Below are positions 44,397-61,303 of a stretch of DNA of 64,000 nucleotides, piece after piece; positions within the stretch are counted from its first letter, which is position 1, and every line of letters starts with the position of its first letter. The notes under the pieces were generated by a model, which did no database searches, was not told where the DNA came from, and worked only from the letters and a program-made list of their open reading frames with translations. The DNA is taken from contig JAIQFS010000013.1 of NCBI GenBank assembly GCA_020073145.1, positions 1-64,000 of the forward strand, read 5' to 3'. A program made the translations under genes and the position numbers. This DNA is from Terriglobia bacterium. Lineage in GTDB: Bacteria; Acidobacteriota; Terriglobia; Bryobacterales; Bryobacteraceae.

Positions 44397-44810
44397 GTGG
44401 ACCGGAGAGACCTCCAGGCGCTTTGCCGGATTCGAATCAGGGAGGCCAAAGCGCTCTTCAACTCGGGCCTGAATGACGGCGCGTACTATCTCACGGGCTA
44501 CGCCGTGGAATGCGCATTGAAAGCCTGCATTGCGAAGGAGACGCGGAGGCATGACTTTCCCGATAAGAAAAGGGCTGAGGCAAGCCACACCCACAAGCTA
44601 GAGACACTTGTCGCGCTGGCCAATCTCGAAGAACCACGCCGGGATCGCGTGAGAACTGACGAGGCATTCCGAAGAAACTGGGACGTCGTTGCGGCGTGGA
44701 CGGAGCAGAGCCGCTATCGTAGAACCTCGCCGGAAAATGCTCGGGCGCTGATTGAGGCAGCGAACGACAGGTATCATGGAATCATCCCATGGATAAGGCT
44801 GCATTGGTGA
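44397..44810 (+). CDS. HEPN-domain protein
   Basis: A 137-residue all-helical HEPN protein. The core reads NDGAYYLTGYAVECALKACI and continues with ETRRHDFP, which carries the R-x-x-H like polar motif, then SHTHKLETLVALANLEE. HEPN proteins include RNase toxins, but this subgroup (with AVECALKACI and HDFP) is largely uncharacterised. The start is GTG at 44397. Its end overlaps the next gene by 22 bases, so the two form a tight pair. A minimal nucleotidyltransferase partner, usual for HEPN/MNT toxin systems, is absent. Confidence 0.8.
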   Translation: MDRRDLQALCRIRIREAKALFNSGLNDGAYYLTGYAVECALKACIAKETRRHDFPDKKRAEASHTHKLETLVALANLEEPRRDRVRTDEAFRRNWDVVAAWTEQSRYRRTSPENARALIEAANDRYHGIIPWIRLHW

Positions 44811-45172
44811 ACGTTGATATCGAACGAGGCGCGGAAATTCTTCGGGCCCTCGATGAGGCCGACCTGAACGTCAAGGTGGTTCTATGGCTTCACTTGCCCG
44901 AATACGAGGATTGGCGTCTGGTGCTTGCGTCCCGTAGCTTCGACGCGGCGGATCCGCGGGAGGCATACGGACTGGTTCACAAAGCGCTCGATGCTGCGGG
45001 ATTCCCGATCGAGCACACACCGGCGCTGCTGATCCTTCCAATGAATGATCCGTCTATTCGGGATTTGCGCCGAATCTTCGGAAAGGCGAAGAGTGTTCTG
45101 GGTATGCGTCTGGGCGGTCAAATGATCGGCGACCGTTTCATTGAAGACGGATACGCCTACCGCATCTCCTGA
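44789..45172 (+). CDS. partner of the HEPN protein, unknown family
   Basis: A 127-residue protein with no family I can name. Landmarks are KVVLWLHLPEYEDWRLVLAS, YGLVHKALDAAGF and a conserved-looking end (GQMIGDRFIEDGYAYRIS). It is alpha/beta with no membrane segment. Its ATG lies 22 bases inside the HEPN gene, which implies coupled translation and a joint function, such as toxin with neutraliser or a two-subunit nuclease. It lacks the GSxxxxxxDxD motif of MNT antitoxins. Convergent with recR, four bases away. Confidence 0.65.
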   Translation: MDKAALVNVDIERGAEILRALDEADLNVKVVLWLHLPEYEDWRLVLASRSFDAADPREAYGLVHKALDAAGFPIEHTPALLILPMNDPSIRDLRRIFGKAKSVLGMRLGGQMIGDRFIEDGYAYRIS

Positions 45173-46092: not shown

Positions 46093-47760
46093 CTACTCCT
46101 TCAAGTTTCGAACTTTGCGAACTTCGCCGCCGAACACTTCGCGAAACCGCTGCACTTCCGGATTGGCCAGCGCCTTACTGGCGATGTCGTCGGCGCCGTT
46201 GCCGGCCGCGGCCTTGGCTGGGATCGCCGCCGGCGGCGATCCGGTTTCTCCCACCGTGATCTTGATCCGTAGGGGCCGGCCGAACACCTCACGTACCGCG
46301 CTTTCGAAATGACGGTCCTCGAGGTACATCTTATAAGTTTTGGCGGTCACGATCTGCAACTCCGCGCCCGCCGCGGTCACGCTCGAATTCTCCACGGCAT
46401 CGGCCAGGTGGGTCAGGCCGTTCTGGACCAGGTGCGCGAGCAGGCGCTCGCGCGCATCGCCCTCCGGGGCCGGGGGGCGGGAGCCAGGGGCCGGAGCGGC
46501 CTTCTTCGCGCTATCGATCTCAAACGGCGACGGCCCGGCTCGAGGTTTGGGCGCAACAACTGCAGGAGACGAAGGCGGAGGCACGGAATTTGCCGGCCGG
46601 CGCATTTCGGCCGCGCTCCCGGCTCCTGACCCCTGGATTTCCGCCAGCGCCTTTTCGATGGGCACGAGACGCCCGGCCTGCACCAGCCGCACCAGTCCGA
46701 TCTCCAGATGAAACCGCGGCTGCAGCGAATACTGCAGGTCGCGGAACAGCTCGAGCGAAAGGTGCAGAAAGCGCGTCAGGTCCTCCTCCGAAAATCCCGC
46801 CGCAACTTCCGCTAGGCTCTGGCGCTGAACCTGGGAGGCTGCAATCAGCCGGGCGGCGCCTTCCGCCCCGGCGATCCGCGCCACCAGCAGGTTGCGGAAA
46901 TAGCGGGCCAGCTCGCGGCTGAAGTGCTGCAGGTTGTGCCCGTTGCGCTCGAGCTCGTCCACCACGTCCAGCATCCGCCGGGAATCGCTGTCGCTCAGAG
47001 CCTGGCTCACCTGCCCGAGCGACTCCAGCGAGAACATGCCGAGCAACGCGCGGATCTCGGCCGCGTGAAGTTGGGCGCCGCAACAGGCGATCGCCTGGTC
47101 GAGCGCCGAAAGCGAATCGCGCACGCTGCCCTCGCCCGCCTGGGCCAGCACGGCCAGCGCCTCGGCATCGGCTTCAATGCCTTCCTGCCCGCAGATCCAG
47201 GCCATGCGCGCCATCAGGTCCTCGAAATCCACCGAGCGAAAACTGAAATGCTGGCAGCGCGACGCGATGGTGGCCGGAATTTTGTGCGCCTCGGTGGTGC
47301 AGAGAATAAAGACCACCCACTCCGGCGGCTCTTCGATGGTCTTCAAGAGCGCATTAAAAGCATCCGTCGTGATTTGATGAGCTTCATCGATGATGAAGAT
47401 CTTGTACCGGGCGCTGGCGGGCCGCTGCAGCACGCTTTGGTTCAACTCGCGCATCTCATTGATGCCGCGATTGGAGGCCGCGTCGATCTCGATCACGTTC
47501 ATGCCGCCGCCCTTGGCCGCTTCCAGGCAGTTGGCGCAAACGCCGCAAGGTTGTGGGGTCGGACCGTTGACGCAGTTGATGCAGCGCGCCAGAATGCGCG
47601 CCACCGTGGTCTTGCCCGTGCCGCGCTGCCCCGAGAAGATATAGCCGTGGGCGATGCGCTGCTGCGCGATGGCGTTTTCGAGCGTCGTCTTGACGTGCTC
47701 CTGGTTGACCACGTCCGAGAACGTCTGCGGCCGGTATTTGCGGGCGATGACCTGGTACAT
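46093..47760 (-). CDS. dnaX: DNA polymerase III subunit gamma/tau
   Basis: A 555-residue clamp-loader ATPase. It starts MYQVIARKYRPQTFSDVVNQ. Walker A is GQRGTGKT (residues 44-51), zinc cysteines are at 60, 63, 72, 75 and 78, and the DEAH box is FIIDEAHQ. The region from about 370 to 450 is Pro/Ala-rich, then a C-terminal domain binds the polymerase. No obvious slippery A-run for a gamma frameshift was noticed. ATG at 47760 matches the family; a longer ORF start at 47808 is not supported. Confidence 0.94.
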   Translation of the reverse strand: MYQVIARKYRPQTFSDVVNQEHVKTTLENAIAQQRIAHGYIFSGQRGTGKTTVARILARCINCVNGPTPQPCGVCANCLEAAKGGGMNVIEIDAASNRGINEMRELNQSVLQRPASARYKIFIIDEAHQITTDAFNALLKTIEEPPEWVVFILCTTEAHKIPATIASRCQHFSFRSVDFEDLMARMAWICGQEGIEADAEALAVLAQAGEGSVRDSLSALDQAIACCGAQLHAAEIRALLGMFSLESLGQVSQALSDSDSRRMLDVVDELERNGHNLQHFSRELARYFRNLLVARIAGAEGAARLIAASQVQRQSLAEVAAGFSEEDLTRFLHLSLELFRDLQYSLQPRFHLEIGLVRLVQAGRLVPIEKALAEIQGSGAGSAAEMRRPANSVPPPSSPAVVAPKPRAGPSPFEIDSAKKAAPAPGSRPPAPEGDARERLLAHLVQNGLTHLADAVENSSVTAAGAELQIVTAKTYKMYLEDRHFESAVREVFGRPLRIKITVGETGSPPAAIPAKAAAGNGADDIASKALANPEVQRFREVFGGEVRKVRNLKE

Positions 47761-47817
47761 GGGGGGCGATCCGGTTCCGGCACGCACACGTTCACGTGCG
47801 TTCCGCAAGCTGCCAGG

Positions 47818-47910: not shown

Positions 47911-48082
47911 GACCTGACAAGTACCCATCCTAACACGGGGGCTGGCGCCCGGTCGGCTGCCGTCGCGGTCAGCCGAAAACACTGATTCGATTGCTCTTGA
48001 CAGGGTCTCTCTTGCGGGCTGGGATTCCCGCCGATAGACCAGTGCCTCGATGCTTCGTGCGTCGTTTGCGCGAGGAGGTCCG

Positions 48083-49318
48083 ATGGGTTTGACTTGGAAG
48101 GCCACTCTGTTGCCCTTGCTGTGGGGTTCGGCGGCGCTGCCCTTGGAGGCGCAGTTCGATTTCACCCTCGGCGGACGCCCCGTGCAGATCCACAGCTTCG
48201 CCTCGCAAGGCTTTGCTTATTCGAACCAAAACAACTACCTGACCATGAAGACGAGCCGGGGCACTTTTGACATGACCGATGTCGGTGTCAACGTATCCAT
48301 CCAACTCACCGACAAACTCCGCATCGGCGCGCAGGCCTACGACCGAGACTTCGGCAGCCTGGGTCAATGGCATCCGCAACTGGACTGGGCCGTTGCGGAC
48401 TACCGCTTCAAAGACTGGTTCGGCATCCGCGGCGGCGTGGTGAAAACCGTGTTCGGACTGGAGAACGACACGCAGGACGTGGACGCGCTGCACACGTTTG
48501 CGTTGTTGCCGCAATCCGTTTATCCCACCGATCTCCGCGACAGCCTGCTGCGCCACCGGGGTGGCGATGTCTATGGCGACATCCCGCTCAAGCGACTGGG
48601 CGCTCTGGCCTATACGGCGTACGCGGGCCTCCGCCAGGATGGCCTTTACGGCGGATATCCGTACTTGCTGTCGGGTAGCGGCGGGCACCTGACCAGCTAC
48701 GGCGGTCTCCAGGTCGGAGGCGACTTGCGCTGGACCACTCCCCTGCGGGGTCTGCTGCTCGGCGCCTCGCACGCGGGCGCGGATGTCAGCGGGACCGGCT
48801 CCTGGACGCTGGCGTTTCCAGGATATGATCCGTTCGTCATCCCCTACGAGGAACACTCCAAACGGGACTGGACCCACCAGTTCTACGGTCAGTACACAAC
48901 AGGCAACTGGCGACTGGCCAGCGAATACCGGCGCTATTGGCGCGATCAAGTGACCTTCAGCGAAATGTGGGAGGTAACAACGGACGTGCGTGGTTGGTAT
49001 GCGTCCGCCTCGTATCGGGTCTCGAAGCGGCTGGAGCTGGGAGCCTATTATTCACGCTGGGTGGTTTCGTGGGTGAACACCATGCCCGGCCTGATCCCGG
49101 CCGCCGACCAGTCGTCGCCGGACCGCCACTTGTACGACAAAGTCGTCACCGCGCGCTTCGACTTGAACACGCATTGGAACTTGAAGCTGGAAGGTCATTT
49201 CATGGATGGCTACGGTGGCACCTGGGCCTATCCGAGCGGGTTCTATACGGCGGACAACGCACAGGGGCTGAAACCCCGGACCAACCTGTTGCTGATCCGG
49301 ACGGGCTGGAGTTTCTGA
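48083..49318 (+). CDS. outer-membrane beta-barrel protein, porin-like
   Basis: A 411-residue exported protein with a signal peptide ([20 protein letters not shown], cleaved near LEA-QF). The mature part alternates hydrophobic and polar residues and is rich in Tyr, Trp and Gly. It ends in aromatic GWSF, the C-terminal signature of outer-membrane barrels. It resembles porin-like proteins found next to sensor kinases with phosphate-binding-like partners. ATG at 48083 is chosen because AGGAGG lies just upstream. It starts the barrel, periplasmic protein, hybrid kinase set. Confidence 0.75.
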
Positions 49319-49329
49319 GGAAGATCGTT

Positions 49330-49761
49330 ATGCCCTGTCTCAAGAAGCATTCACTCCTGCTGGCGGCTGCGCTGTGGAACCTGATGGCCGGCGCCGCCCC
49401 CGCGACCGGCATCCAGGTGATCGCGAATCCGAGCGTCACGGCCACGGCGATTTCCTGCGAAGAAATCAAGGGGGTCTTTCTGGAGACCCGGACAGCCTTA
49501 TCCGACGGCAGCCACGTGGAGCCGGTCCTGCTGCAGTCCGGCGTCGTACACCGGGCCTTTGTCAAAGAGTTCCTCGGCAAGGGCGACGCCGCGCTGGAGA
49601 CCTACTATCGCAGCCTGGTGTTTGCGGGGCGCGGGCTGATTCCGAAGACGCTCGAATCCGACGCCGCAGTGGTCCAATACGTGGCCAAGACCAAAGGCAC
49701 GGTGGGATATGTCAGCGCCGCGGCCAGCGTGGCGGGGGTCAAGGTGCTCGACATCCGATGA
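49330..49761 (+). CDS. small PstS-like periplasmic binding protein
   Basis: A 143-residue exported protein with signal peptide ([20 protein letters not shown], cleaved near APA-TG). The mature part matches a short PstS-like (phosphate-binding-like) domain: [15 protein letters not shown] at the start, [21 protein letters not shown], and the end [20 protein letters not shown]. It is half the length of a real phosphate-binding protein, and no pst transport genes are nearby. Its stop overlaps the hybrid kinase start (ATGA), so it probably delivers a signal to that kinase. Confidence 0.78.
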
Positions 49762-52076
49762 ACTCGCCGTTCCATGGGAAACCTGGAACGCCACCCCGGG
49801 AGCCGGTCGCGGTCCGGCTCAACGTCGCGGCCCGGATCTGGCTGGCGATCGGTATCTTCGTCATGGGCTTCATCCTCTCCATGGTTCTGCAACAGGTGCA
49901 GGGCCGCAATACCGAGGAGCGTCTGCGGAATACCTCCGAAGCGTTGTTTCCAGCGGCGCTCTTGAGCCAGGACGCGACAGCCGCATTCCAGCGGACCCTG
50001 AAGGGATTCAGCGACGCGGTGCTGGTGGAGGACGAATCCGGACTGCGTCACGCCACAGCCGACGGGCAGCAAGCGGTCGGATTCCTTCGCACGGCGGCGG
50101 CCGTCCGGGGACTGCCGCCCGACCAGACGGCCGAGGCCGCCAGGCTGTCGGCCGCGCTGGAGGGGTTTCTGGCCGACGCGCGGTCCACCTATCAAGCCGT
50201 GGCGGGACCGGGAAAGATGACCATCGAGAACCAGCGGCGGATGCACCATCTGGCAGCCCGCACCGCGATTCTCAAAAGCGACCTCCAAAGGTTGCAGGAG
50301 AAGGTATCGTCCGCGATGCAGGAGAACCTGCGCACCGTGCAGGCCCGGTCCCGGCGGGACCGGTGGCTCAGCCTGCTGCTGTTCGCCACCACCTTGCTGA
50401 TTTCGGCGATCCTGGTCAACTGGACCATTGGCCGCGTCATCACGGCCCCGCTGCTGCGCGCCGAAGCAGCCCTGCTCAACTCCAAAGAAGCGGCCGAGGC
50501 GGCCGACCGGGCCAAGAGCGAGTTTCTGGCCAATATGAGCCACGAAATCCGCACCCCGATGAACGGCATTGTGGGCATGACCGAGTTGGCGCTCGATACC
50601 GACCTGACGCCGGAGCAGAGAGAATACTTGGGGATGGTGAAGGCATCGGCCGATTCGTTGATGACCGTGATCAACGACATCCTGGATTTCTCCAAAATCG
50701 AAGCGGGCAAGTTGGATTTCGAAGCCATCGATTTTAGCCTGCGCGATGCCGTGGAGCAGATGACGAAAGCGCTGGCTCTGCGCGCCGGGCAGAAGGGCCT
50801 CGAACTGAATTGCCGGATCGGGACCGGGGTACCGGACGTGCTGGTCGGCGATCCCGGGCGGCTGCGCCAGATTCTGCTCAACCTGACGGCCAATGCCATT
50901 AAGTTCACCGAGCGCGGCGAGGTGACGATCGAGGCTGAGCTGGAAACCGAAGACCCCGAATTCGTCTGGCTCCACTTCAGCGTGACCGATACCGGAATCG
51001 GCATTCCCCCGGACAAGCAGGCCTCGATCTTCAGCGCCTTCGCGCAAGGGGACAGCTCTACCACCCGGCGCTACGGCGGCACGGGGCTGGGGTTGAGCAT
51101 CTCCCAGAGACTGGCGGAGATGATGGGCGGACGGATTCTGGTCGAGAGCGCGGCGGGCCAGGGCAGCCGGTTCCACTTCCGGGCGCGATTCGGACGAAGT
51201 TCGGCAGCCGTGAGGGCGCCGGCTGGTCCCGTGAACCTGGACGGCGTGGCCGTGCTGGTAGTGGACGACAACTACACCAACCGGCGCATCCTGGAGGAAA
51301 TCCTGGCGGGCTGGCACATGCACCCCGTGCTGGCCGGTCATGGCGCCGAAGCCCTCCGGCAGTTGGAGAACGCGGTCGAGGCCGGACGGGCATACCCGCT
51401 GGTGGTGGTCGACGCCCACATGCCGGAAATGGATGGATTTCAGTTGGCCGAGCGGATCCGCGGCAACCCCAAGCTATCCGAGACCAGTCTCATGATGTTG
51501 AGCTCGGCCGGCCAGCGAGGGGATGCCAGCCGCTGCCGCGAATTGGGAATGGCGGCCTACCTCACGAAACCGGTAGCGCGCGCGGAATTGCACGATGCCA
51601 TCGTGCGCGTGCTGGCGGGGCGCGCCGAAACGGAGCCGCAGGTCCCGCTGGTCACGCGCCACTCCCTGCGCGCCAGCCGTAGGGAGCCGCGCATCCTGCT
51701 GGCCGAGGACAACCCGGTGAACCGGACGCTGGCAATCCGGCTTCTGCAAAAGCGGGGATACCAGGTGGAGGTGGCGTCGAACGGCCGCGAGGCGGTGGAG
51801 AAATTCACCGGCGGAGGCTTTGACGCGGTGCTCATGGACGTCCAGATGCCCGATATGGATGGCTTCGAGGCCACGGCTGCGATCCGCGCGAGGGAAGCAG
51901 GCACGATTGCCCACATCCCCATCATCGCCATGACCGCCCATGCCATGAAAGGGGACCGCGACCGTTGCTTTGCCTCGGGGATGGACGGGTATGTCACCAA
52001 GCCGATCCGGCCGGAGGAACTGGTCCGGCAAATCGAGGCGAATCTCGCCGCCAGACTGCAGCCCTTCCCCGCCTGA
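49758..52076 (+). CDS. hybrid histidine kinase with two receiver domains
   Basis: A 772-residue kinase. A membrane helix at about 28-48 and another near 210-232 enclose an extracytoplasmic helical sensor of about 160 residues. A DHp domain with His262 ([20 protein letters not shown]) and an ATPase domain with [10 protein letters not shown] follow. Two receivers have Asp552 ([12 protein letters not shown]) and Asp694 ([12 protein letters not shown]). There is no histidine phosphotransfer domain. Translation is coupled to the PstS-like gene, and the barrel gene is just upstream, pointing to one envelope-sensing unit. Confidence 0.92.
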
Positions 52077-52106
52077 CGGTCTGGCGGATCGGAGGATCGC
52101 GGGAAG

Positions 52107-53438
52107 CTAGGAGTTCGGGTCGGCGGGCTCCGGGCCTTCCGGTGCGGGAGAAACGGGCAGGGTCACGACGAACGTCGTTCCCTGCATTCCGTTCGGTTCG
52201 AAGTTCAGAGTGCCGCCGTGCTTCCCCACTACAATGGCGCGGGCGATGGCCAGCCCCTGCCCGCTTCCACTACCCACCGGCTTGGTGGTGAAAAACGGGT
52301 CGAACACTTTCGACCGGATGGCCTCCGGGATGCCGCCTCCCGTATCGCTGATGCGGACCGCCACCCACTGGCCTTCGCGCCGGGTCTGAAGGGAAATCCG
52401 GCCTCTCCGTCCGGTCTGCTTCATCCGGTCCCGGACGGCCTGCGCGGCATTGAGGATCAGGTTCAGAAATACCTGGTTGATTTCGGCGCCGTGGCAGACC
52501 ACCGGCGGCAACTCGCCAAAGTCCGTCTCCGCGTCGGCCGCCGGATTGATTTCGTGCTGCGCGATCAGCAAGGCGTTTTGCAACGCGCGGTTGAGATCTG
52601 CCGCCGCCTTCTCGGTGCGCCCCGGATGCGCGAATTCCTTCATGGCGCGCACGAGGGCCGCCACCTGTTCGGCGCCCGCCAGCGACTGCGCCAGCGCTTT
52701 GGGCGCTTCGGCGCGCAGGTAGTCTACATCCGCTTCGTCGAAAGCCCGCGCCAGCGCCGCCTGCCAGGGATCGAGCGGCATCCCCTCGCTCGCGGCCCCC
52801 CACGCTTGTTCGTAGGCGGCCAGCACAACCTGCCACGCCGCGAAGGCCCGCCCCAGAAATTGCAGGTTGTCGCAAACAAACTGGATGGGCGTGTTGACCT
52901 CGTGCGCTAGGCCGGCTGCCAGCTGCCCCACGGCCTCCAGCCTCTGCGCCTGTCGCAGTTCCAGTTCGAGCGCCCGCACTTCGGTGACGTCGGCCGCGGT
53001 GACGATGAAGCCGGCCGTCTCTTGGCCTCTTACCATGCGCCGCACCGTCAATCCCAGAATTCGGGTTTTCTGGTCTCTCCGATACGGGACGTCTTCGGAC
53101 CGGAACGAAGGCGCGGCGGCCCGCAGCCAGCGCGCGACTTCGGCTTTCATGCCGGGCTTCTCCCACTGGATTCCGCTGTCCTCGAAAGCGCGGCCTAGGG
53201 CGCGCTCGGGGCTGACTCCCAGGATGGCCACGGCCGCGGGGTTCCAGCGGGTGACGAGGCCGTCGGGGTCGAGCCCGATCAGGATCGAGGGCACACAACT
53301 CAAGAACAGCTCGGCATCGGCGCGCGCGGCTTCCAGCCGGGAATTCGTCGTTGGATCCTCGTCCCCGCTCGTGGCGCTCCCCGATTCCCGGCGGCCCCAG
53401 TCCTCCGCAGATCCGCTCATGCCCGGCCTTCCGTCCAC
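52107..53438 (-). CDS. PAS-domain sensor histidine kinase (soluble)
   Basis: A 443-residue cytoplasmic kinase. PAS domain at about 40-150 (PSILIGLDPDGLVTRWNPAA). Phosphoacceptor His179 sits in QLAAGLAHEVNTPIQFVCDN. A roughly 90-residue insert precedes VRAMKEFAHPG and the ATPase motifs (NLILNAAQAV, ISDTGGGIP, GSGQGLAIA). It is paralogous to the C-terminal half of the kinase at 57865-59943. ATG at 53420 is an alternative start. It faces away from the response-regulator row, giving a divergent layout. Confidence 0.9.
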   Translation of the reverse strand: MDGRPGMSGSAEDWGRRESGSATSGDEDPTTNSRLEAARADAELFLSCVPSILIGLDPDGLVTRWNPAAVAILGVSPERALGRAFEDSGIQWEKPGMKAEVARWLRAAAPSFRSEDVPYRRDQKTRILGLTVRRMVRGQETAGFIVTAADVTEVRALELELRQAQRLEAVGQLAAGLAHEVNTPIQFVCDNLQFLGRAFAAWQVVLAAYEQAWGAASEGMPLDPWQAALARAFDEADVDYLRAEAPKALAQSLAGAEQVAALVRAMKEFAHPGRTEKAAADLNRALQNALLIAQHEINPAADAETDFGELPPVVCHGAEINQVFLNLILNAAQAVRDRMKQTGRRGRISLQTRREGQWVAVRISDTGGGIPEAIRSKVFDPFFTTKPVGSGSGQGLAIARAIVVGKHGGTLNFEPNGMQGTTFVVTLPVSPAPEGPEPADPNS

Positions 53439-53555
53439 CTGCTCCCGAAAGGATCGGCTCTACCGGGCATGACCTTTAGGAGACCGGGCGGAGGCTCGAG
53501 CCGTCGCCGGTTCGGAACTGCTGATTTCCACCCCAATCGTACGCTTCGCCCGCCA

Positions 53556-53594
53556 GACCTCTCGAGGAGGTCGGTTTGACGGCGGTGCCGCCGT
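53556..53594 (+). promoter_or_regulatory. two hairpins in the leader of the HDOD regulator
   Basis: GACCTC, loop TCGAG, GAGGTC (53556-53572), then the palindrome ACGGCGGTGCCGCCGT (53579-53594), both in the 236-base interval between the divergent kinase and regulator genes. They may be operators or leader structures. No riboswitch class matches. Confidence 0.25.
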
Positions 53595-53674
53595 AATGAG
53601 CACCTGGGTTTCGGACGATAGAGCAAATAGCGGGTGGACAGCGCCGTGTCCAGCGGCCCAGTCCGGGAGAGCCC

Positions 53675-54865
53675 ATGAAGCGCATTCTGTTCGTCGACGA
53701 TGAGCCCAAGGTTCTGGAGGGCTTAGAGCGCATGCTCCACGCTCAGCGCAAGCAGTGGGAGATGAGCTTCGTCGCCAGCGGGGCGGAGGCCCTGGCCCTG
53801 CTGGAGACCCGTCCGTTCGACGCCATCGTGACCGACGTGCGGATGCCGGAGATGGGCGGCGTGCGGCTGCTCGAATGCGTCCAGCAGCGATTTCCCGCGA
53901 CGATGAGGGTGGTCCTTTCGGGCTTCTTTGAACGGGAGGCCGCGTTGAAGGCGGCCGGGCTGGCCCACCAGTATCTGGCGAAGCCCTGCGATCCCGAAAG
54001 ACTCTGCGAGGCCGTCGAGCGGCTGTGCCGTCTCGGGCCGGTCTTCTCCGACGAAGCCACGCGGCGCGTGGTAGCGGCGGTCGGCCGTCTGCCGTCTCCC
54101 GGGCGAACGGATGCGGGCTTGATCGAAGCCCTGGGCAAGCCGGACGTACCTCTGGAGGAAGTCGACCGGATCCTGCGGCAGGACGAAGGCATGAGCGCCC
54201 GGGTGCTCGACCTGGTGAACTCCGCCGGATTCGGCCTTTTCTGCGAATTCGCCTCGCTCTACCAGGCGGCCGGGCCGGTTGAATTGGAGCCGCTGAGCCA
54301 CCTGTGGCTAGCCGTCGAGATCTTCCGGACCTTCCAGCCCGACTGCTCCATTGCCGGATTTTCGCCGGAAGGTGTGCGGCGTCACTCCCGGCGGGCGGCC
54401 CGGATCGCGGCCCGCTTGCCGGTGCCGCGGGAAACGTTTGCCGAGGCGGTCACCGCCGCGCTGTTGCATGACGTCGGAAAGCTGGTGCTGGCGGTACGTC
54501 TTCCGGGGCCGTTGGAGCGGGCCCTGGAAACGGCGGCGCGGGAGAACCGGCCGCAGTGTGCCGTCGAGCAGGAGATCCTCGGGACCGACCACGCGGAGGT
54601 GGGCGGGTTTCTGCTGAGCGTGTGGGGCCTGCCGCGGACCATTGTGGACGCGGTCACCCGCCACCACCACCCCGCCGCGGAGGGACCGTTGCTGGACGGC
54701 CTCGACGTCCTCGCGGTGGCCCACACCGCCAACGCGCTCGACGCGGAGCGGTCGGCGGGGGCCGATCCTTGGGACTCCGAGTATCTGGCCGCGCTGGGCG
54801 TCGCCGACCGGCTGCCGGCCTGGCGCGCGATGGCGGAACAAATCGCGAGCGCGGGAGGAATCTGA
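53675..54865 (+). CDS. response regulator with HDOD output domain (first copy)
   Basis: A 396-residue protein: receiver domain at 1-120 with Asp54 (IVTDVRMPEMGG) and Lys in YLAKPCDPE, then an HDOD domain from about 140 to 330 (LVNSAGFGLFCEFASLYQAA, ALLHDVGKLVLAVRL). HDOD proteins control c-di-GMP, stress or cell-cycle outputs by protein contact, usually without catalysis. This copy is more diverged in the helix before the core than the next gene. It is eight bases ahead of its paralogue, forming a tandem duplication. Confidence 0.88.
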   Translation: MKRILFVDDEPKVLEGLERMLHAQRKQWEMSFVASGAEALALLETRPFDAIVTDVRMPEMGGVRLLECVQQRFPATMRVVLSGFFEREAALKAAGLAHQYLAKPCDPERLCEAVERLCRLGPVFSDEATRRVVAAVGRLPSPGRTDAGLIEALGKPDVPLEEVDRILRQDEGMSARVLDLVNSAGFGLFCEFASLYQAAGPVELEPLSHLWLAVEIFRTFQPDCSIAGFSPEGVRRHSRRAARIAARLPVPRETFAEAVTAALLHDVGKLVLAVRLPGPLERALETAARENRPQCAVEQEILGTDHAEVGGFLLSVWGLPRTIVDAVTRHHHPAAEGPLLDGLDVLAVAHTANALDAERSAGADPWDSEYLAALGVADRLPAWRAMAEQIASAGGI

Positions 54866-54873
54866 AACGCGCC

Positions 54874-56088
54874 ATGAAACGGATTCTCTTCGTCGATGAC
54901 GAGCCCAAGGTGCTCGAAGGGTTGCAGCGCATGCTCCGCCCCCAGCGCAAGCAGTGGGAAATGGTCTTCGCCAACAGTGGAGCGGAGGCCCTGTCGGTGC
55001 TGGAGACCGCTCCCTTCGACGTAATTGTCAGCGACATGCGGATGCCGGAAATGGACGGCGCCACGTTGCTCGAGCAGGTGCAGCAACGCTTCCCGGGTGT
55101 GGTCCGGATGGTGCTGTCCGGATACTTCGAAATGGAAATGGCGATGCGGGCGGTGCCGGTGGCGCACCAGTACCTGGCCAAGCCCTGCGATCCCGAAAAA
55201 CTGCGGCTGGCCATTGAGCGCGCCTGCGGGTTTGCCGCCATCTTGACCGACGAGGCGGCCCGGCGGGTGGTGGGCGCCATCGGGAGGCTGCCGACGCTGC
55301 CGCGCACCTGCGCCACCCTCATCGAAGCGCTCCGCAACCCCGATGTTCCGATTGAAGAGATCGGCCGGATCATCGAGCAGGATGTCGGCATGACGGCCAA
55401 GGTGCTGCAATTGGTCAACTCCGCGTTTTTCGGATTGCTGCAGGAGGTCACCACGGTGCGCACGGCGGTCAGCTATCTGGGGCTGGACGTGCTCAAACAA
55501 CTGGTGCTCTCGGTGGAGATCTTCCGCACCTTCCATCCGCGGCAGGCGCTCCCCTGGTTTTCCATCGAGGCCTTTCAGAGCCACTCCCGGTTGGCGGCGG
55601 CGATTGCGGCGCGGCTGCCGGCGGACAAAAAAACGGCGGCGGCGGCGGTAGTGGCCGCGCTGTTGCACGATACCGGCAAACTGGTGCTGGCGGCCCGGCT
55701 GCCCGGTCCGTTCGAGCGGGCGCTGGAAACGGCGGCGCGCGAAGGCCGCCCTCTGCACGTGGTGGAGCGGGAATTAACGGGGACGGGCCACGCCGAAATC
55801 GGGGCCTATCTGCTGGCGTTGTGGGGGTTGCCGCTCCCCATTGTCGACGCCGTCTGCCGACACCACCACCCCGCGGTCACGGAGGCCGATGGGCCGGGGC
55901 TGAGCGTGCTCGCCATCACCCATATCGCCGACGGTCTGGCCTTCGAACAGGCCATGGATACACCGAGCGAGGCGCCTCCGGACACCGGCCTGTTGAACGC
56001 CGAATACCTGGCCGAGCTCGGAGTCTCGGGGGAACTGCCCGGCTGGCGGGAAATGGCGGCTCAGGTGGCGCACCCGGTGGCAGTCTGA
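54874..56088 (+). CDS. response regulator with HDOD output domain (second copy)
   Basis: A 404-residue paralogue of the preceding gene: receiver with Asp54 (VIVSDMRMPEMDGATLLEQV), then HDOD (QDVGMTAKVLQLVNSAFFGL, TAVSYLGLDVLKQLVLSVEI, ALLHDTGKLVLAARL). It keeps the canonical HDOD sequence better than the first copy. ATG at 54874 is chosen because the receiver MKRILFVDDEPKVLEGL begins there, only eight bases after the previous stop. The next gene starts two bases after this stop, so the three regulators form an operon. Confidence 0.9.
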   Translation: MKRILFVDDEPKVLEGLQRMLRPQRKQWEMVFANSGAEALSVLETAPFDVIVSDMRMPEMDGATLLEQVQQRFPGVVRMVLSGYFEMEMAMRAVPVAHQYLAKPCDPEKLRLAIERACGFAAILTDEAARRVVGAIGRLPTLPRTCATLIEALRNPDVPIEEIGRIIEQDVGMTAKVLQLVNSAFFGLLQEVTTVRTAVSYLGLDVLKQLVLSVEIFRTFHPRQALPWFSIEAFQSHSRLAAAIAARLPADKKTAAAAVVAALLHDTGKLVLAARLPGPFERALETAAREGRPLHVVERELTGTGHAEIGAYLLALWGLPLPIVDAVCRHHHPAVTEADGPGLSVLAITHIADGLAFEQAMDTPSEAPPDTGLLNAEYLAELGVSGELPGWREMAAQVAHPVAV

Positions 56089-56090
56089 CC

Positions 56091-57827
56091 ATGACCGAGA
56101 CCGCCAAGCCGCGCGTCCTGTTTGTCGACGATGAGCCCGATCTGCTGGAGGCCTTGGCGCGCAATCTGCGCTCGGAGCACTTCGCCGTGTCGACGGCCTC
56201 GGGCGGCGCCGTGGCGCTCGAAATGCTCCAGCAAGCCGGCCCCTTTGCGGTCATCGTATCCGATCTGCGCATGCCCGAGATGGACGGAGTCACGTTGCTG
56301 CGGCTGGCCCGGCAGAGCGCGCCCGAGACCATCCGGGTGCTGTTCACCGGCCAGCCCGATCTGGAACGCTCGATTGCCGCCGTGAATGAAGGGGCCATTT
56401 TCCGGTTCCTCACCAAGCCCTGCTCGCGGGTGATCCTGGCGCTGACGTTGAAAGCCGCGGTCGAACAGTACCGGCTGGTCACCGCCGAGCGCGTTCTGCT
56501 GGAGCAAACCCTGCACGGCAGCATCCAAGCGCTCACCGATGTACTGTCGCTGACCGCTCCGCTGGCTTTCGGGCGCGCCGCCCGGCTGCGGCAGACAGTC
56601 CGCAGCCTGGCTTCGGCCTCCGGGGTGGTGGAGACCTGGCCGGTGGAGGTGGCGGCCATGCTATCGCAGGTCGGCTGCGTCATCCTGCCTCCCGCCACCC
56701 TGGAAAAGGTCCACCGGGGGGAGCCGCTCAGCGAGGCCGAGCAGACCATGGTGCGGCGGATGCCGGCGATTGTCGAACAGGTGCTCGGGAATATTCCGCG
56801 CCTGGAGCCGGTGCGCGAGATCCTCCGGCTGCGCGACAAGCCGTTTGACGGCGGCAGCCGGGCGCCTGGGGCCGAGGCCATTCCGTGGGGGGCGCGCGCG
56901 CTCAAGCTGGCCTTCGATCTGGATGTGCTCGAGAGCGAAGGCACGCCCGCATCCCTGGGATTCGAAACACTGCGGGCGCGTCCTGGCTGGTACGATCCCG
57001 ATGTTCTGCAAAAACTGGTCGAGATTCGCGCCAGCGAACAGTCGGCGCAGGTTCGGGAAGTGCCGCTCGCCGGCCTGCTGCCGGGCATGGTGATGGCGCA
57101 GGACGTGCGCACACACAAGGGGGACCTGTTCGTGGCCCGCGGCCAGGAAGTGTCCGCCAGCCTGGTGGAAAAGCTGCGAAACTTTGCGGCTAGTGAAGGG
57201 CAGATCGAAGAGGTTTGCCTGGTCAAGGCCAAGCCGGCCGAATGGCTGAACGATGCGCTGCCGGCGGCGTCCCCTGGCAGCGCCGCACCCGGCCCATCGG
57301 AACCTCCGGCTGCCGCCGTTCCAACCGCGGACGCGGCCGATCCGGTCACCGGGCTTCCCGGAAGGGCCCAGGCCGAAGCCGCCCTCTCGGCGCTCTGCCA
57401 GGGCGAAAAGCCGGCCTACCTGGCGGTCCTGGTCCTGGACAGCCTGCCCTCGGTCAGCGCCCGGTTCGGACGCCGCGCGGGAGACGCGCTGCTGCGGGCC
57501 TATGGAAGCTTCATTGCGGAAGTGCTGGCCCCGGAAGACCGCTTGTTTCGCTGGTCGGGTCCCGCCCTGGTGGCGCTGTTGCCGCGTCTGGACGATGTGG
57601 ACCGCGTCCGCGGCGACTTCCGGACGCTGCTCGACCAGCGCAAATTCCAGCATGCGGTGCGCACGTCCACGCGTTCGATTCCGTTGACCGCATCGCCGCG
57701 GTGGACCCTGCTCCCCGCCATGGAGTCGGCCCGCGGGTTCATTGAAAAGATCGACACGTTTGTGGGGGCTCTCACCGGGCCCGAGGAAGGACCAGGAACT
57801 CATCCCGCTGCAGGGAGCAGCCGATAA
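56091..57827 (+). CDS. response regulator with degenerate HD-GYP and degenerate GGDEF domains
   Basis: A 578-residue protein. The receiver (1-120) keeps its Asp in VIVSDLRMPEMDG. A second region, about 150-300, follows the HD-GYP fold (EQTMVRRMPAIVEQVLGNIP, then EAIPWGARALKLAFDLDVLE) but the HD pair reads SQ and the GYP site reads FDGGSRAPG. The C-terminal 160 residues follow the GGDEF fold (ADPVTGLPGRAQAEAALSAL, LVLDSLPSVSARFGRRAGDA), but the signature reads WSGPALVALLP in place of GGDEF. It therefore should neither make nor break c-di-GMP. It may bind c-di-GMP or act by contact. Confidence 0.85.
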   Translation: MTETAKPRVLFVDDEPDLLEALARNLRSEHFAVSTASGGAVALEMLQQAGPFAVIVSDLRMPEMDGVTLLRLARQSAPETIRVLFTGQPDLERSIAAVNEGAIFRFLTKPCSRVILALTLKAAVEQYRLVTAERVLLEQTLHGSIQALTDVLSLTAPLAFGRAARLRQTVRSLASASGVVETWPVEVAAMLSQVGCVILPPATLEKVHRGEPLSEAEQTMVRRMPAIVEQVLGNIPRLEPVREILRLRDKPFDGGSRAPGAEAIPWGARALKLAFDLDVLESEGTPASLGFETLRARPGWYDPDVLQKLVEIRASEQSAQVREVPLAGLLPGMVMAQDVRTHKGDLFVARGQEVSASLVEKLRNFAASEGQIEEVCLVKAKPAEWLNDALPAASPGSAAPGPSEPPAAAVPTADAADPVTGLPGRAQAEAALSALCQGEKPAYLAVLVLDSLPSVSARFGRRAGDALLRAYGSFIAEVLAPEDRLFRWSGPALVALLPRLDDVDRVRGDFRTLLDQRKFQHAVRTSTRSIPLTASPRWTLLPAMESARGFIEKIDTFVGALTGPEEGPGTHPAAGSSR

Positions 57828-57864
57828 GATCTAGGGCACGGGTTGCGTGCCGAGGTGGTAAACC

Positions 57865-59943
57865 GTGTCGGAGTTGGACCAGTCGCACCAGGACCGGGTT
57901 GAGAGCGAGGCCACCGCCGGAACGTCCGGACCGGCCGGCGGGGCCGGATCCAGCGAGCAGATTCGCCTGCTGGCGCAGGCTCTCCGGTGCATGGAAGAGT
58001 GCGTTTCGATCACCGATGGCGCCGATCGCATCCTGTTTGTCAACCCGGCGTTCCTGCGCACCTACGGATACGAGGAACACGAGTTGATCGGCCAGTCGAT
58101 CGACATCGTGCGCGGCGACGCGCGCCTGGAAGGCGGCGTCGAACAGATTTTCAAGGCCACGCTGGCGGGCGGCTGGCGAGGCCGCTTGTGGAACCGGAAG
58201 AGAAACGGCGCCGAGTTCCCCATCTTCCTGTCCACCTCGGTGGTGCGGGATGAGAGCGGAGAGCCGCTCGCGTTGATCGGGCTCGCCCGCGACCTGACCG
58301 AGCGCCAGCGCGCCGAAGAGCAACTGCGGTTGAAGACCGCCGTGCTCGAAGCCCAGCTGGAAGCCACCATTGACGGCATCCTGGTCGTGGACGAGTCCGA
58401 GAAAGTCATCTTGTCCAACCGCCAGTTCGCACGCATGTGGCAGACCGGGGACGACCTCCTCGACCGGAGCGACGACCGGCTCCTGCTGCAGCATGCGGCC
58501 AGCCAGGTCGACGGCTACGAGGCCTTCCTCGAAAGAGTCCAATACCTCTACCGCCACCGCGAAGAGAAAAGCCGGGATGAGATCCGATTCAAGGACGGAC
58601 GAGTGTTTGACCGGTATTCCACGCCCCTGATCGAATCCACCGGGCGGTATTGCGGCCGCATCTGGTACTTCCGGGACATCACCGCTCGCAAACAGGCCGA
58701 GGAGCTCTTGCGGGAGTCCGAACGGAAGTACCGCAACCTGTACGAGAGCATGACGGATGCCTTCGCGCAACTCGATCTGCAGGGCCGCGTTCAGGAATTC
58801 AATCAGGCCTTCCAACGCATGCTGGGTTACTCGCGCGAGGAACTGCTGGGATTGAGGTGCCATGACCTGACGCCGGCGAAATGGCGCGCGTTGGAGACCA
58901 AGATTGTGGATGAGCAGGTGGTGGCACGGGGGTATTCCGAGGTCTATGAGAAGGAGTTCCAAAAAAAGGACGGCACCACGTTCCCCGTGGAACTCCGCAT
59001 GATTCTGATGCGCGATGAAGCCGGCCGGCCGGAGGGCATGTGGGCCATCGTGCGCGACATCAGCGAGCGGAAGGCGATGGAGTGGGAGCTGCATCAGGCC
59101 CAGCGGCTCGAATCCGTGGGCCAGTTGGCGGCCGGCATCGCGCATGAGATCAATACGCCCATTCAGTACGTCGGCGACAACCTCCGGTTTATCGAGGACG
59201 CCTTCAAAACCCGCCAGGCCGTGCTGACCCAGTATGAGGAACTGCGGCAGGCCGCCGCGGCCGGAAGCGTCCCTCCTGTCTTACTGGAGCAGTTGGCCCA
59301 GACACTCTCCGACGCGGATTGGGACTACCTGTCCGGAGAAGTTCCCAGAGCGGTTGCGCAGTCGCTCGACGGCGTGGAGCGCGTAGCCACCATCGTCCGG
59401 GCCATGAAGGAATTCGCCCATCCGGGGCGCAAGGAAAAATCGGCGGCTGACCTGAACCGGGCCCTGGGCAATGCCTTGATTGTGGCCCGGAACGAAATCA
59501 AATACGTGGCCGACGTGGAAACCGATTATGGCGAACTGCCCCCGGTGATGTGCCTCATCGCCGAAATCAACCAGGTCTTCCTGAACCTGCTGATCAACGC
59601 CGCTCATGCCATCCGGGAAGTCATGAAGGAGAGCGAGAAAAAAGGCAAGATCCACGTTCGAACCCGGCAGGTCGAGGACCGGGCGGAGATTTCGATCAGC
59701 GACACCGGCTGCGGGATTCCGGACGCCATCCGGGCCAAGATTTTCGATCCGTTCTTCACCACCAAGGGGGTGGGACGCGGCAGCGGGCAGGGTCTCACCA
59801 TCGCCCGCTCGATCGTGGTGGAAAAGCACGGCGGCACCCTGACCTTCGAACCCAACGTTCCGCAAGGGACAACGTTCGTCATCTCCTTGCCTCTGGACGC
59901 CCCCACTACGGCTGGCGCGCCGGACTCTTCCGACGCCAGATGA
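57865..59943 (+). CDS. multi-PAS sensor histidine kinase (soluble)
   Basis: A 692-residue cytoplasmic kinase with three PAS domains (about 35-150, 160-275 and 285-405; for example SITDGADRILFVNPAFLRTY and AQLDLQGRVQEFNQAFQRML). Phosphoacceptor His427 lies in GIAHEINTPIQYVGDN. ATPase motifs are INQVFLNLLINAAHAI, ISDTGCGIP and GSGQGLTIA. The kinase core is paralogous to the one at 52107-53438, including the same long insert before VRAMKEFAHPG. The start is GTG at 57865, behind GAGGTGG. Last gene of the regulator operon; its end overlaps the convergent permease gene by 38 bases. Confidence 0.92.
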   Translation: MSELDQSHQDRVESEATAGTSGPAGGAGSSEQIRLLAQALRCMEECVSITDGADRILFVNPAFLRTYGYEEHELIGQSIDIVRGDARLEGGVEQIFKATLAGGWRGRLWNRKRNGAEFPIFLSTSVVRDESGEPLALIGLARDLTERQRAEEQLRLKTAVLEAQLEATIDGILVVDESEKVILSNRQFARMWQTGDDLLDRSDDRLLLQHAASQVDGYEAFLERVQYLYRHREEKSRDEIRFKDGRVFDRYSTPLIESTGRYCGRIWYFRDITARKQAEELLRESERKYRNLYESMTDAFAQLDLQGRVQEFNQAFQRMLGYSREELLGLRCHDLTPAKWRALETKIVDEQVVARGYSEVYEKEFQKKDGTTFPVELRMILMRDEAGRPEGMWAIVRDISERKAMEWELHQAQRLESVGQLAAGIAHEINTPIQYVGDNLRFIEDAFKTRQAVLTQYEELRQAAAAGSVPPVLLEQLAQTLSDADWDYLSGEVPRAVAQSLDGVERVATIVRAMKEFAHPGRKEKSAADLNRALGNALIVARNEIKYVADVETDYGELPPVMCLIAEINQVFLNLLINAAHAIREVMKESEKKGKIHVRTRQVEDRAEISISDTGCGIPDAIRAKIFDPFFTTKGVGRGSGQGLTIARSIVVEKHGGTLTFEPNVPQGTTFVISLPLDAPTTAGAPDSSDAR

Positions 59944-61303
59944 AATACACCGGCAGTCCCAACATCACGATGATCAGCCCCGGCCAGGTGTAGTCGGGCT
60001 TGTAGAGCAGCAGGAGGACTTCGATGGCGCCCGCCGCCAGAATGTACAGCGCGGGCAGCACCGGATACCCCAACGCCCGGTAGGACCGCTCCAGGTTCGG
60101 CTGCTTGCGGCGCAGCACGAACAGCGCCGAAATGGTCAGAATATAGAACAGCAGCGCGGCGAAAATCACGTAATCCAGCAGATCGCTGTAGCTCCCGCTC
60201 AGGATCAGCAGCACCGTCCAGATGCATTGCACCGCCAGCGCAAAGCGCGGCGTGTGATGGAGCGGATCCACTTGCGCCGCCCGCCGGAAAAAGAGTCCGT
60301 CCTTAGCCATGGCATAGGAGACGCGCGCGCCGGCCAGGATCAAGCCGTTGTTGCAGCCAAAGGTGGAGATCATGATGGCCGCCGCCATCAGCTGCACGGC
60401 CACCGGGCCCAGGATGTAGGCGGCCGCGGCGGTGGCCACGCGATCTTCCGGCGCATGCTGAATGGCCTCCAGCGGAAGCAGGTTCAAATAAACCAGATTG
60501 CAGGCGATGTACAGCGCCGAAACCAGCCCCACGCCCAGCGCCAGCGAGAGCGGCAGGTTGCGCTTGGGATTGCGCACCTCGGCGGCGGTGAAGGTGACGT
60601 TGTTCCAGGCGTCGGACGAGAACAGCGCCCCGACCATCGCCACGCCCACCAGCCGGACGCTGTCGAAGGTCCAGCCGCTGTTCCGCCAGAAGCCGGTGAA
60701 GTTGATGTGCACCGCGGCCGCGTTTCGTCCGATCAGGAAGCCGAAACCGATCAGCCCGAGCAACGCCGCCGTCTTGGCAAAGGTGAATACGTTCTGGACT
60801 ACCGCGCCCGTGCGGATGCCGCGCGTATTGCTCCAGGAGAGCAGCAGCACCACCGCGATGGCCAGCAACTCCTGGGTGTTGAGTCCGAGGCGGCCGTGGC
60901 CGAACAGGTAGTTCCCGGCCGAGATCGACGGCGCGAAGATTCCGGTGTACTTGGCAAACGCCACCGCCACCGCGGCGATGGTGCCGGTCTGGATCACCAG
61001 GAACAGCGTCCAGCCATACAGGAATCCCCACATCGGCCCGAACGCTTCGCGCAGATAGACGTATTGGCCGCCCGCGTGGGGCATGGCGGCGGCCAGTTCG
61101 CCGTAGCTGAGCGCGGCCGTCATCGTCATGGCGGCCGTCACCAGCCAGGTCACCAGCAGCAGACCGGGCGAATTCACCTGGCGCGAAATGTCCGCGGCCA
61201 CAATGAAGATGCCCGAGCCGATCATCGAGCCCATCACCAGGGTGGTCGAGTCGAGTAGGCCGAGCCCTTTGACTAAGCCTCCGTTTTCACGATTCGTTGC
61301 CAT
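59906..61303 (-). CDS. APC-superfamily amino acid permease
   Basis: A 465-residue transporter with about twelve membrane helices. It starts with the family motif VMGSMIGSGIFIVAADIS near residue 23 and continues with GGQYVYLREAFGPMWGF. It moves amino acids or related compounds across the inner membrane, probably as exchanger or symporter; the substrate is not clear. The gene overlaps thiE upstream by 31 bases and the kinase gene downstream by 38. Confidence 0.88.
   Translation of the reverse strand: MATNRENGGLVKGLGLLDSTTLVMGSMIGSGIFIVAADISRQVNSPGLLLVTWLVTAAMTMTAALSYGELAAAMPHAGGQYVYLREAFGPMWGFLYGWTLFLVIQTGTIAAVAVAFAKYTGIFAPSISAGNYLFGHGRLGLNTQELLAIAVVLLLSWSNTRGIRTGAVVQNVFTFAKTAALLGLIGFGFLIGRNAAAVHINFTGFWRNSGWTFDSVRLVGVAMVGALFSSDAWNNVTFTAAEVRNPKRNLPLSLALGVGLVSALYIACNLVYLNLLPLEAIQHAPEDRVATAAAAYILGPVAVQLMAAAIMISTFGCNNGLILAGARVSYAMAKDGLFFRRAAQVDPLHHTPRFALAVQCIWTVLLILSGSYSDLLDYVIFAALLFYILTISALFVLRRKQPNLERSYRALGYPVLPALYILAAGAIEVLLLLYKPDYTWPGLIIVMLGLPVYFIWRRKSPARQP

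Follow-up and report, generated by a model that had tools for sequence, protein, structure and literature searches.

The HDOD cassette and its response regulator

The response regulator gene described here (P0001; its product is referred to hereafter as RR) lies in a 64,000-nucleotide stretch of Terriglobia bacterium DNA, which we call the window; it is from a soil acidobacterium, with Terriglobia and subdivision-3 sequences as nearest relatives and a probable place in the Bryobacteraceae. Its reading frame opens with an ATG at 56091 and closes with its own stop ending at 57827, and it stands third in a tight run of four genes that encode two REC-HDOD response regulators, RR and a triple-PAS histidine kinase (Table 1). 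The stop-to-start gaps are 11 bases between the HDOD genes and 2 bases between the second of these and RR, and the kinase starts 37 bases downstream of RR. An original prediction, made from the sequence alone, had placed RR in an operon with two HDOD regulators, and both genes do lie directly upstream; the downstream PAS kinase was missing from it. By Pfam, the neighbors of RR in the operon are HDOD regulators and kinases, with no active c-di-GMP enzyme encoded there.

Three Pfam matches, all exceeding the cut-off, span RR: Response_reg (residues 9-114, E 1e-18), HD_5 (147-305, E 3e-21) and GGDEF (416-530, E 1e-11). The receiver keeps Asp13, Asp14, Asp58 (within SDLRMP), Thr86 and Lys109, of which the three aspartates and the lysine are invariant in our alignment (A2) and Thr86 nearly so. 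The predicted domain order (receiver, HD-GYP-like, GGDEF-like) and the retained phosphoacceptor Asp are borne out by these matches and by Asp58, and the three altered motifs that had been read from the sequence (SQ, FDGGSRAPG and WSGPAL) recur at Ser192-Gln193, residues 252-260 and, for SGPAL, residues 489-493. What does not hold is the notion that signatures were lost in RR itself, as both substitutions are common to the respective families.

Table 1. Features of the locus (coordinates in the window; aa, residues of RR).
Feature	Position	Strand	Remarks
REC-HDOD response regulator 1	53675..54865	+	Pfam HDOD E 2e-35
REC-HDOD response regulator 2	54877..56088	+	Pfam HDOD E 4e-49
RR gene P0001	56091..57827	+	REC - pseudo-HD-GYP - conserved tail - pseudo-GGDEF, 578 aa
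Receiver domain, aa 9-114	56115..56432	+	Pfam E 1.2e-18; Asp58 codon 56262-56264
Pseudo-HD-GYP (HD_5), aa 147-305	56529..57005	+	Pfam E 3.2e-21
Ser192-Gln193	56664..56669	+	Replaces metal-binding HD pair
FDGGSRAPG, aa 252-260	56844..56870	+	Replaces GYP loop; no aromatic residue at Tyr position
Conserved C-terminal segment of REC-HD clade, aa 319-368	57045..57194	+	Alignment A4
Pseudo-GGDEF domain, aa 404-566	57300..57788	+	Pfam E 1.3e-11
RW-SGPAL, aa 487-493	57549..57569	+	Replaces R-[FYW]-GGDEF; SGPAL = 489-493
Triple-PAS histidine kinase	57865..59943	+	AHEINT box; Pfam PAS x3, HATPase_c E 3e-24
Second PAS histidine kinase	52107..53438	-	Paralogue, divergent from cassette
APC permease	59906..61303	-	One border of pseudo-GGDEF slot
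dnaX	46093..47808	-	Other border of slot; ybaB and recR beyond

The full-length model of RR is confident over the receiver and HD-like domain, where most block pLDDT values are 80-95, and these superimpose on 3kcn_A (Z 24.0, 135 residues, 1.1 Å) and on chain D of DvhD, 9rbz_D (VIA-align Z 19.9, 184 residues, rmsd 3.6 Å), respectively. The GGDEF region is of low confidence in this model because no alignment rows cover it (the full-length alignment misplaced separate GGDEF pieces), and we therefore used a separate model, with the receiver-HD part and the GGDEF part aligned and folded apart. Modeled alone with eight sequences (pLDDT 77.8, pTM 0.74), the C-terminal domain finds its best PDB match in the GGDEF domain of DgcB (6ttr, E 3e-10, TM 0.75) and also matches FimX (3hva, TM 0.74). 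The structural alignment that had been suggested as a check thus places both predicted folds on solved structures (9rbz and 6ttr); given these matches of the models, the domain assignments are not due to chance. Both folds are real, and the residues they carry mark each active site as dead, with metal and catalytic positions replaced; the original description of a doubly dead protein stands on this reading.

The HD-less REC-HD clade

In a maximum-likelihood tree of 45 REC-HD proteins, all 21 sequences that lack the HD pair lie across one branch (100/100 support), and RR branches inside them. These HD-less members come from Acidobacteriota, Myxococcota, Actinomycetota (a MAG), Gamma- and Alphaproteobacteria and Thermodesulfobacteriota. 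Members from 297 sampled genomes of the phylum brought the clade to 50 sequences; the broad searches scored a limited number of candidates per genome and the sample was selected for similarity to the window protein, such that the frequencies given here apply within the sample. The HD pair is present in 0/50 clade members, 29 of which carry SQ; of 28 outgroup sequences, 26 have HD or HE at this position. The metal and catalytic set of the HD-keeping proteins (His, His-Asp, Lys, His, His, Glu) reads R162, S192-Q193, C196, M224, R248 and K250 in RR.

Three other residues, Trp183, Pro236 and Arg237, are found in all 50 clade members including RR and are rare or absent among HD-keeping proteins. 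Loss of the HD pair, as read from these alignments and the tree, is old, happened once only and is clade-wide rather than specific to RR. Catalysis was apparently lost while new constraint was gained at Trp183, Pro236 and Arg237, and the fold would therefore have been repurposed rather than left to decay; the newly invariant residues point to a new role. The GYP loop of the nearest neighbors is FDG-[ST]G-x-P, and that of RR has eroded further. Some other clade members retain an FDGSGFP-like loop and so could still bind nucleotide.

The clade is also tied to HDOD genes: a REC-HDOD gene lies directly upstream on the same strand in 36 of 45 clade members (the count being limited to those whose upstream sequence ran to at least 600 bases), versus 2 of 28 HD-keeping relatives. 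In longer clade loci the order is PAS kinase (of the same type as in the window), HDOD gene, regulator gene, and the window has its kinase last. The triple-PAS kinase is likely the cognate kinase of RR. Contig 41 of the window's genome encodes two further HD-less clade members, of which one sits in an HDOD and kinase cassette of its own; in this second cassette (L195:1935-9410, G000) the two HD-less regulators are arranged about a REC-HDOD gene together with a ~1400-residue frame for a multi-PAS histidine kinase. A literature search, in which subscription journals were thinly covered, returned no description of cassettes combining HDOD and dead HD-GYP proteins.

Such proteins match phosphodiesterase families by fold (Pfam HD_5; NCBIfam "c-di-GMP phosphodiesterase, NosR family"). 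The best NCBIfam model for RR is NosR NF053512 (E 8e-66), and at 222.7 bits against a curated cut-off of 400 we did not accept RR as a member of that family. Because catalysis was lost once, long ago, and the clade then acquired new conserved residues and a stable HDOD link, it offers a clean set in which to study the function of dead HD-GYP domains. The interest of the locus is this cross-phylum, HDOD-linked pseudo-HD clade, together with the captured pseudo-GGDEF domain considered below, rather than signature loss itself.

Origin of the pseudo-GGDEF domain

The closest orthologues of RR (62-65% identity) are REC-HD proteins only, ending at the conserved tail segment of the clade (consensus PGM..A.DV...G.L.VARGQEV....VEKLRNF, alignment A4) with the GGDEF-like domain absent. 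The best relatives of that domain are instead proteins that stand alone (43-44% identity) and occur commonly in the bacterial family of the window, mostly ~290-420 residues long and with an extra N-terminal region, in which the commonest motif in place of GGDEF is RW-[ST]GP-[AST]-[FL]. The RW pair is present in 31/31 stand-alone homologues, the following Gly (G2) in 29/31 and the Pro (P3) in 27/31. A match is found in 184 of 200 genomes of the family, many of the weak ones being ordinary GGDEF domains and the clear members fewer; examples of the stand-alone proteins are seen at loci L029-L041 and L132-L160 (such as L030:934-1944 and L031:1171-2043). The window's genome has no stand-alone copy, and those of its other GGDEF matches that were inspected are of different types.

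By its RW-x-GP motif and its tree position the C-terminal domain of RR belongs with this family. In the domain tree the window copy pairs as sister with the stand-alone protein of G001, a genome of the same genus (97/89), and this pair lies inside a starred nine-row set, among whose other members are G005, G034, G111, G151 and G188. Genomic context ties the two together further, as the stand-alone family occupies in several genomes a slot between an APC permease and dnaX-ybaB-recR. The full order in G005 is ThiE, APC permease, second permease, pseudo-GGDEF, dnaX, ybaB, recR; G001 shows pseudo-GGDEF, dnaX, ybaB, recR, and portions of the permease side are visible in G111, G151 and G188. In G003 the permease adjoins dnaX with neither the pseudo-GGDEF gene nor the cassette between them. 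In the window the same borders enclose ~12 kb of two-component genes including the fused RR; besides a porin-like gene and one that may encode a periplasmic binding protein, the stretch 48050-59943 contains a two-receiver hybrid kinase, two PAS kinases and the HDOD/RR cassette.

The C-terminal domain was thus apparently captured, as these sequence relationships suggest, from a neighboring gene of the RW-[ST]GP family, whose members stand as separate proteins in the same slot elsewhere. The simplest reading is that the cassette reached the resident pseudo-GGDEF locus and that the RR gene then took its GGDEF-like domain. The fused domain is on the strand opposite to the ancestral gene, so an inversion is required, and a search of the window for the N-terminal region of the stand-alone protein gave only weak matches far from the locus. 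The fusion is found in one genome only and no relative examined has it. It suggests that the stand-alone pseudo-GGDEF family can work with this regulator, and it provides that family with a concrete candidate partner.

Proposed role of RR and alternative readings

We favor, with a probability of roughly 0.6, a reading in which RR is a phosphorylation-switched docking protein that exerts its output through two catalytically dead folds and does not read c-di-GMP canonically. The downstream PAS kinase would phosphorylate Asp58, and the retained receiver residues are consistent with the phosphorylation control that had been proposed originally; the AHEINT box of the kinase is also compatible with a bifunctional kinase/phosphatase (cf. 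NosK). Once phosphorylated, RR would dock differently onto its partners through the pseudo-HD domain, the likeliest of these partners being the HDOD proteins encoded in its own operon, and the pseudo-GGDEF domain may add a docking or dimerization surface. RR would neither make nor degrade c-di-GMP, and probably does not read it through canonical sites.

In its way of working RR would resemble HnoD of Shewanella oneidensis, a kinase-controlled regulator composed of a receiver and a dead HD-GYP domain, which has no phosphodiesterase activity and inhibits the phosphodiesterase HnoB by direct contact (PMC6335343). RR shares the phosphorylatable receiver and the kinase in the same operon, and lacks an adjacent target c-di-GMP enzyme: HnoD acts on HnoB of its own signaling system, whereas the operon neighbors of RR are HDOD proteins and the pseudo-GGDEF domain is additional in RR. 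The genome does carry seven GGDEF matches and several HD-GYP matches, which leaves room for an HnoD-like effect on an active c-di-GMP enzyme encoded elsewhere as a possible further partner. A further protein of this genome with PAS and GGDEF domains (L194:316-1269, contig 3 of G000) has the motif WDEDRF, and its GGDEF domain is apparently degenerate. The genome's only EAL match (L192:513-1754, contig 76 of G000) looks like a YuxH-like EAL-HDOD protein, and c-di-GMP breakdown in this genome therefore probably rests on HD-GYP enzymes.

NosR of Burkholderia pairs a receiver with an altered HD-GYP domain (HG-GTP) and is phosphorylated by the operon kinase NosK; that it acts by contact is its authors' hypothesis (PMC12570481), and, in contrast to RR, it has no described HDOD partner and no GGDEF-like domain. 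RpfG-type REC-HD-GYP phosphodiesterases have the same domain order and fold as RR, in which the metal and catalytic positions are changed. FimX and LapD likewise use dead c-di-GMP domains for regulation (PMC8846402, PMC13090378), but have EAL domains where RR carries HD-GYP-like and GGDEF-like domains behind a receiver.

The original prediction had left the choice between a c-di-GMP reader and a scaffold; the scaffold is our best reading, and the reader fares poorly for want of contact residues. A receptor model would have RR, under phosphorylation control, bind c-di-GMP without metal at an SQ-type site and signal through the HDOD proteins. It draws on DvhD of Desulfovibrio vulgaris, which has SQ for HD in an inactive HD-GYP fold, does not hydrolyze c-di-GMP and yet binds it in the crystal structure (PDB 9rbz; PMC13090378). 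DvhD is the solved HD-GYP chain that emerged from the fold comparison, and of such chains it scores highest as a single domain against the clade profile; the genome carries apparently active c-di-GMP enzymes. However, DvhD is a PAS membrane receptor and not a response regulator, and it groups with HD-keeping proteins outside the clade (98* SH-aLRT, in a quick tree with a long branch), so that SQ most likely arose twice, independently in DvhD and in the clade. The ligand-by-ligand comparison (ligands from PMC13090378, with the chain numbering inferred from the residues named there, all of which fit) points the same way: of the eight canonical-site ligands only the hydrophobic Leu577 (kept) and Met646 (Leu in RR) have equivalents, Tyr523, Lys582 and Glu668 are replaced by Leu, Gln and Arg, Tyr621 is missing, and the loop in which Arg650 and Tyr652 contact phosphate and base has been deleted throughout the clade (50/50). 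Tree and ligands together reverse the support that DvhD's SQ had seemed to lend; the motif alone does not predict a c-di-GMP receptor. In the GGDEF-like domain, for which we take the roles of metal, catalytic, I-site and guanine-reading positions to be those of PleD, the RxxD I-site before the GGDEF motif is not found (A480-P-E-D483, with Ala480 for the Arg), and Val448 stands at the position of the first metal Asp (Asp327), Pro491 at the third position of the GGDEF motif and Ala492 at that of the catalytic Glu. With the DvhD-type contacts, the I-site Arg and the metal ligands gone, canonical reading of c-di-GMP by RR appears unlikely; binding at some unusual site may occur, and we hold the receptor model as a whole to be unlikely too.

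The pseudo-GGDEF domain might instead sense a guanine nucleotide (GTP or ppGpp) and so tune RR, in the manner of FimX or CC_3396; there is precedent for degenerate GGDEF domains that sense GTP (PMC8846402). The stand-alone relatives do keep the guanine-recognition Asn (28/31) and Asp (27/31) and the G2 glycine within a GGDEF fold, the metal ligands not being kept, which is a hint of nucleotide binding there. The window copy, though, has Ser456 for the Asn, leaving Asp465 only, and both metal positions (Val448, Pro491) are changed, making a sensor of this kind rather improbable in RR. We are similarly doubtful that RR is a functionless, decaying chimera from a recent gene fusion or an assembly join: restriction of the fusion to one genome and a GYP loop more eroded than in close relatives would fit decay, but the 578 codons are open, identity to the nearest orthologues is 62-65%, the receiver is intact, the operon spacing is tight (2 and 37 bases), both parts retain the residues that define their families, and the fusion site coincides with the locus of the resident pseudo-GGDEF gene. 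That RR works as a phosphodiesterase or cyclase by means of catalytic residues located elsewhere in the fold is very hard to credit; both folds are kept, yet the HD-type positions are R162, S192, Q193, C196, M224, R248 and K250, the GGDEF domain has neither metal ligand nor catalytic Glu, and VC1087 and VCA0895, HD-GYP proteins that likewise lack HD, have no activity (PMC4212101).

Beyond the docking reading for RR itself, we suggest, tentatively and as the less probable outcome, that kinase, REC-HDOD and REC-pseudo-HD proteins might constitute an undescribed module of several phyla, a phosphorylation-gated complex of two kinds of dead HD proteins with no enzymatic output, into which a resident pseudo-GGDEF domain would have been captured here, joining two formerly separate pathways.

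Outside the permease-dnaX interval, two small adjacent genes at 44397-45172 (+), the first HEPN-type-like by eye, possibly form a toxin-antitoxin-like pair.
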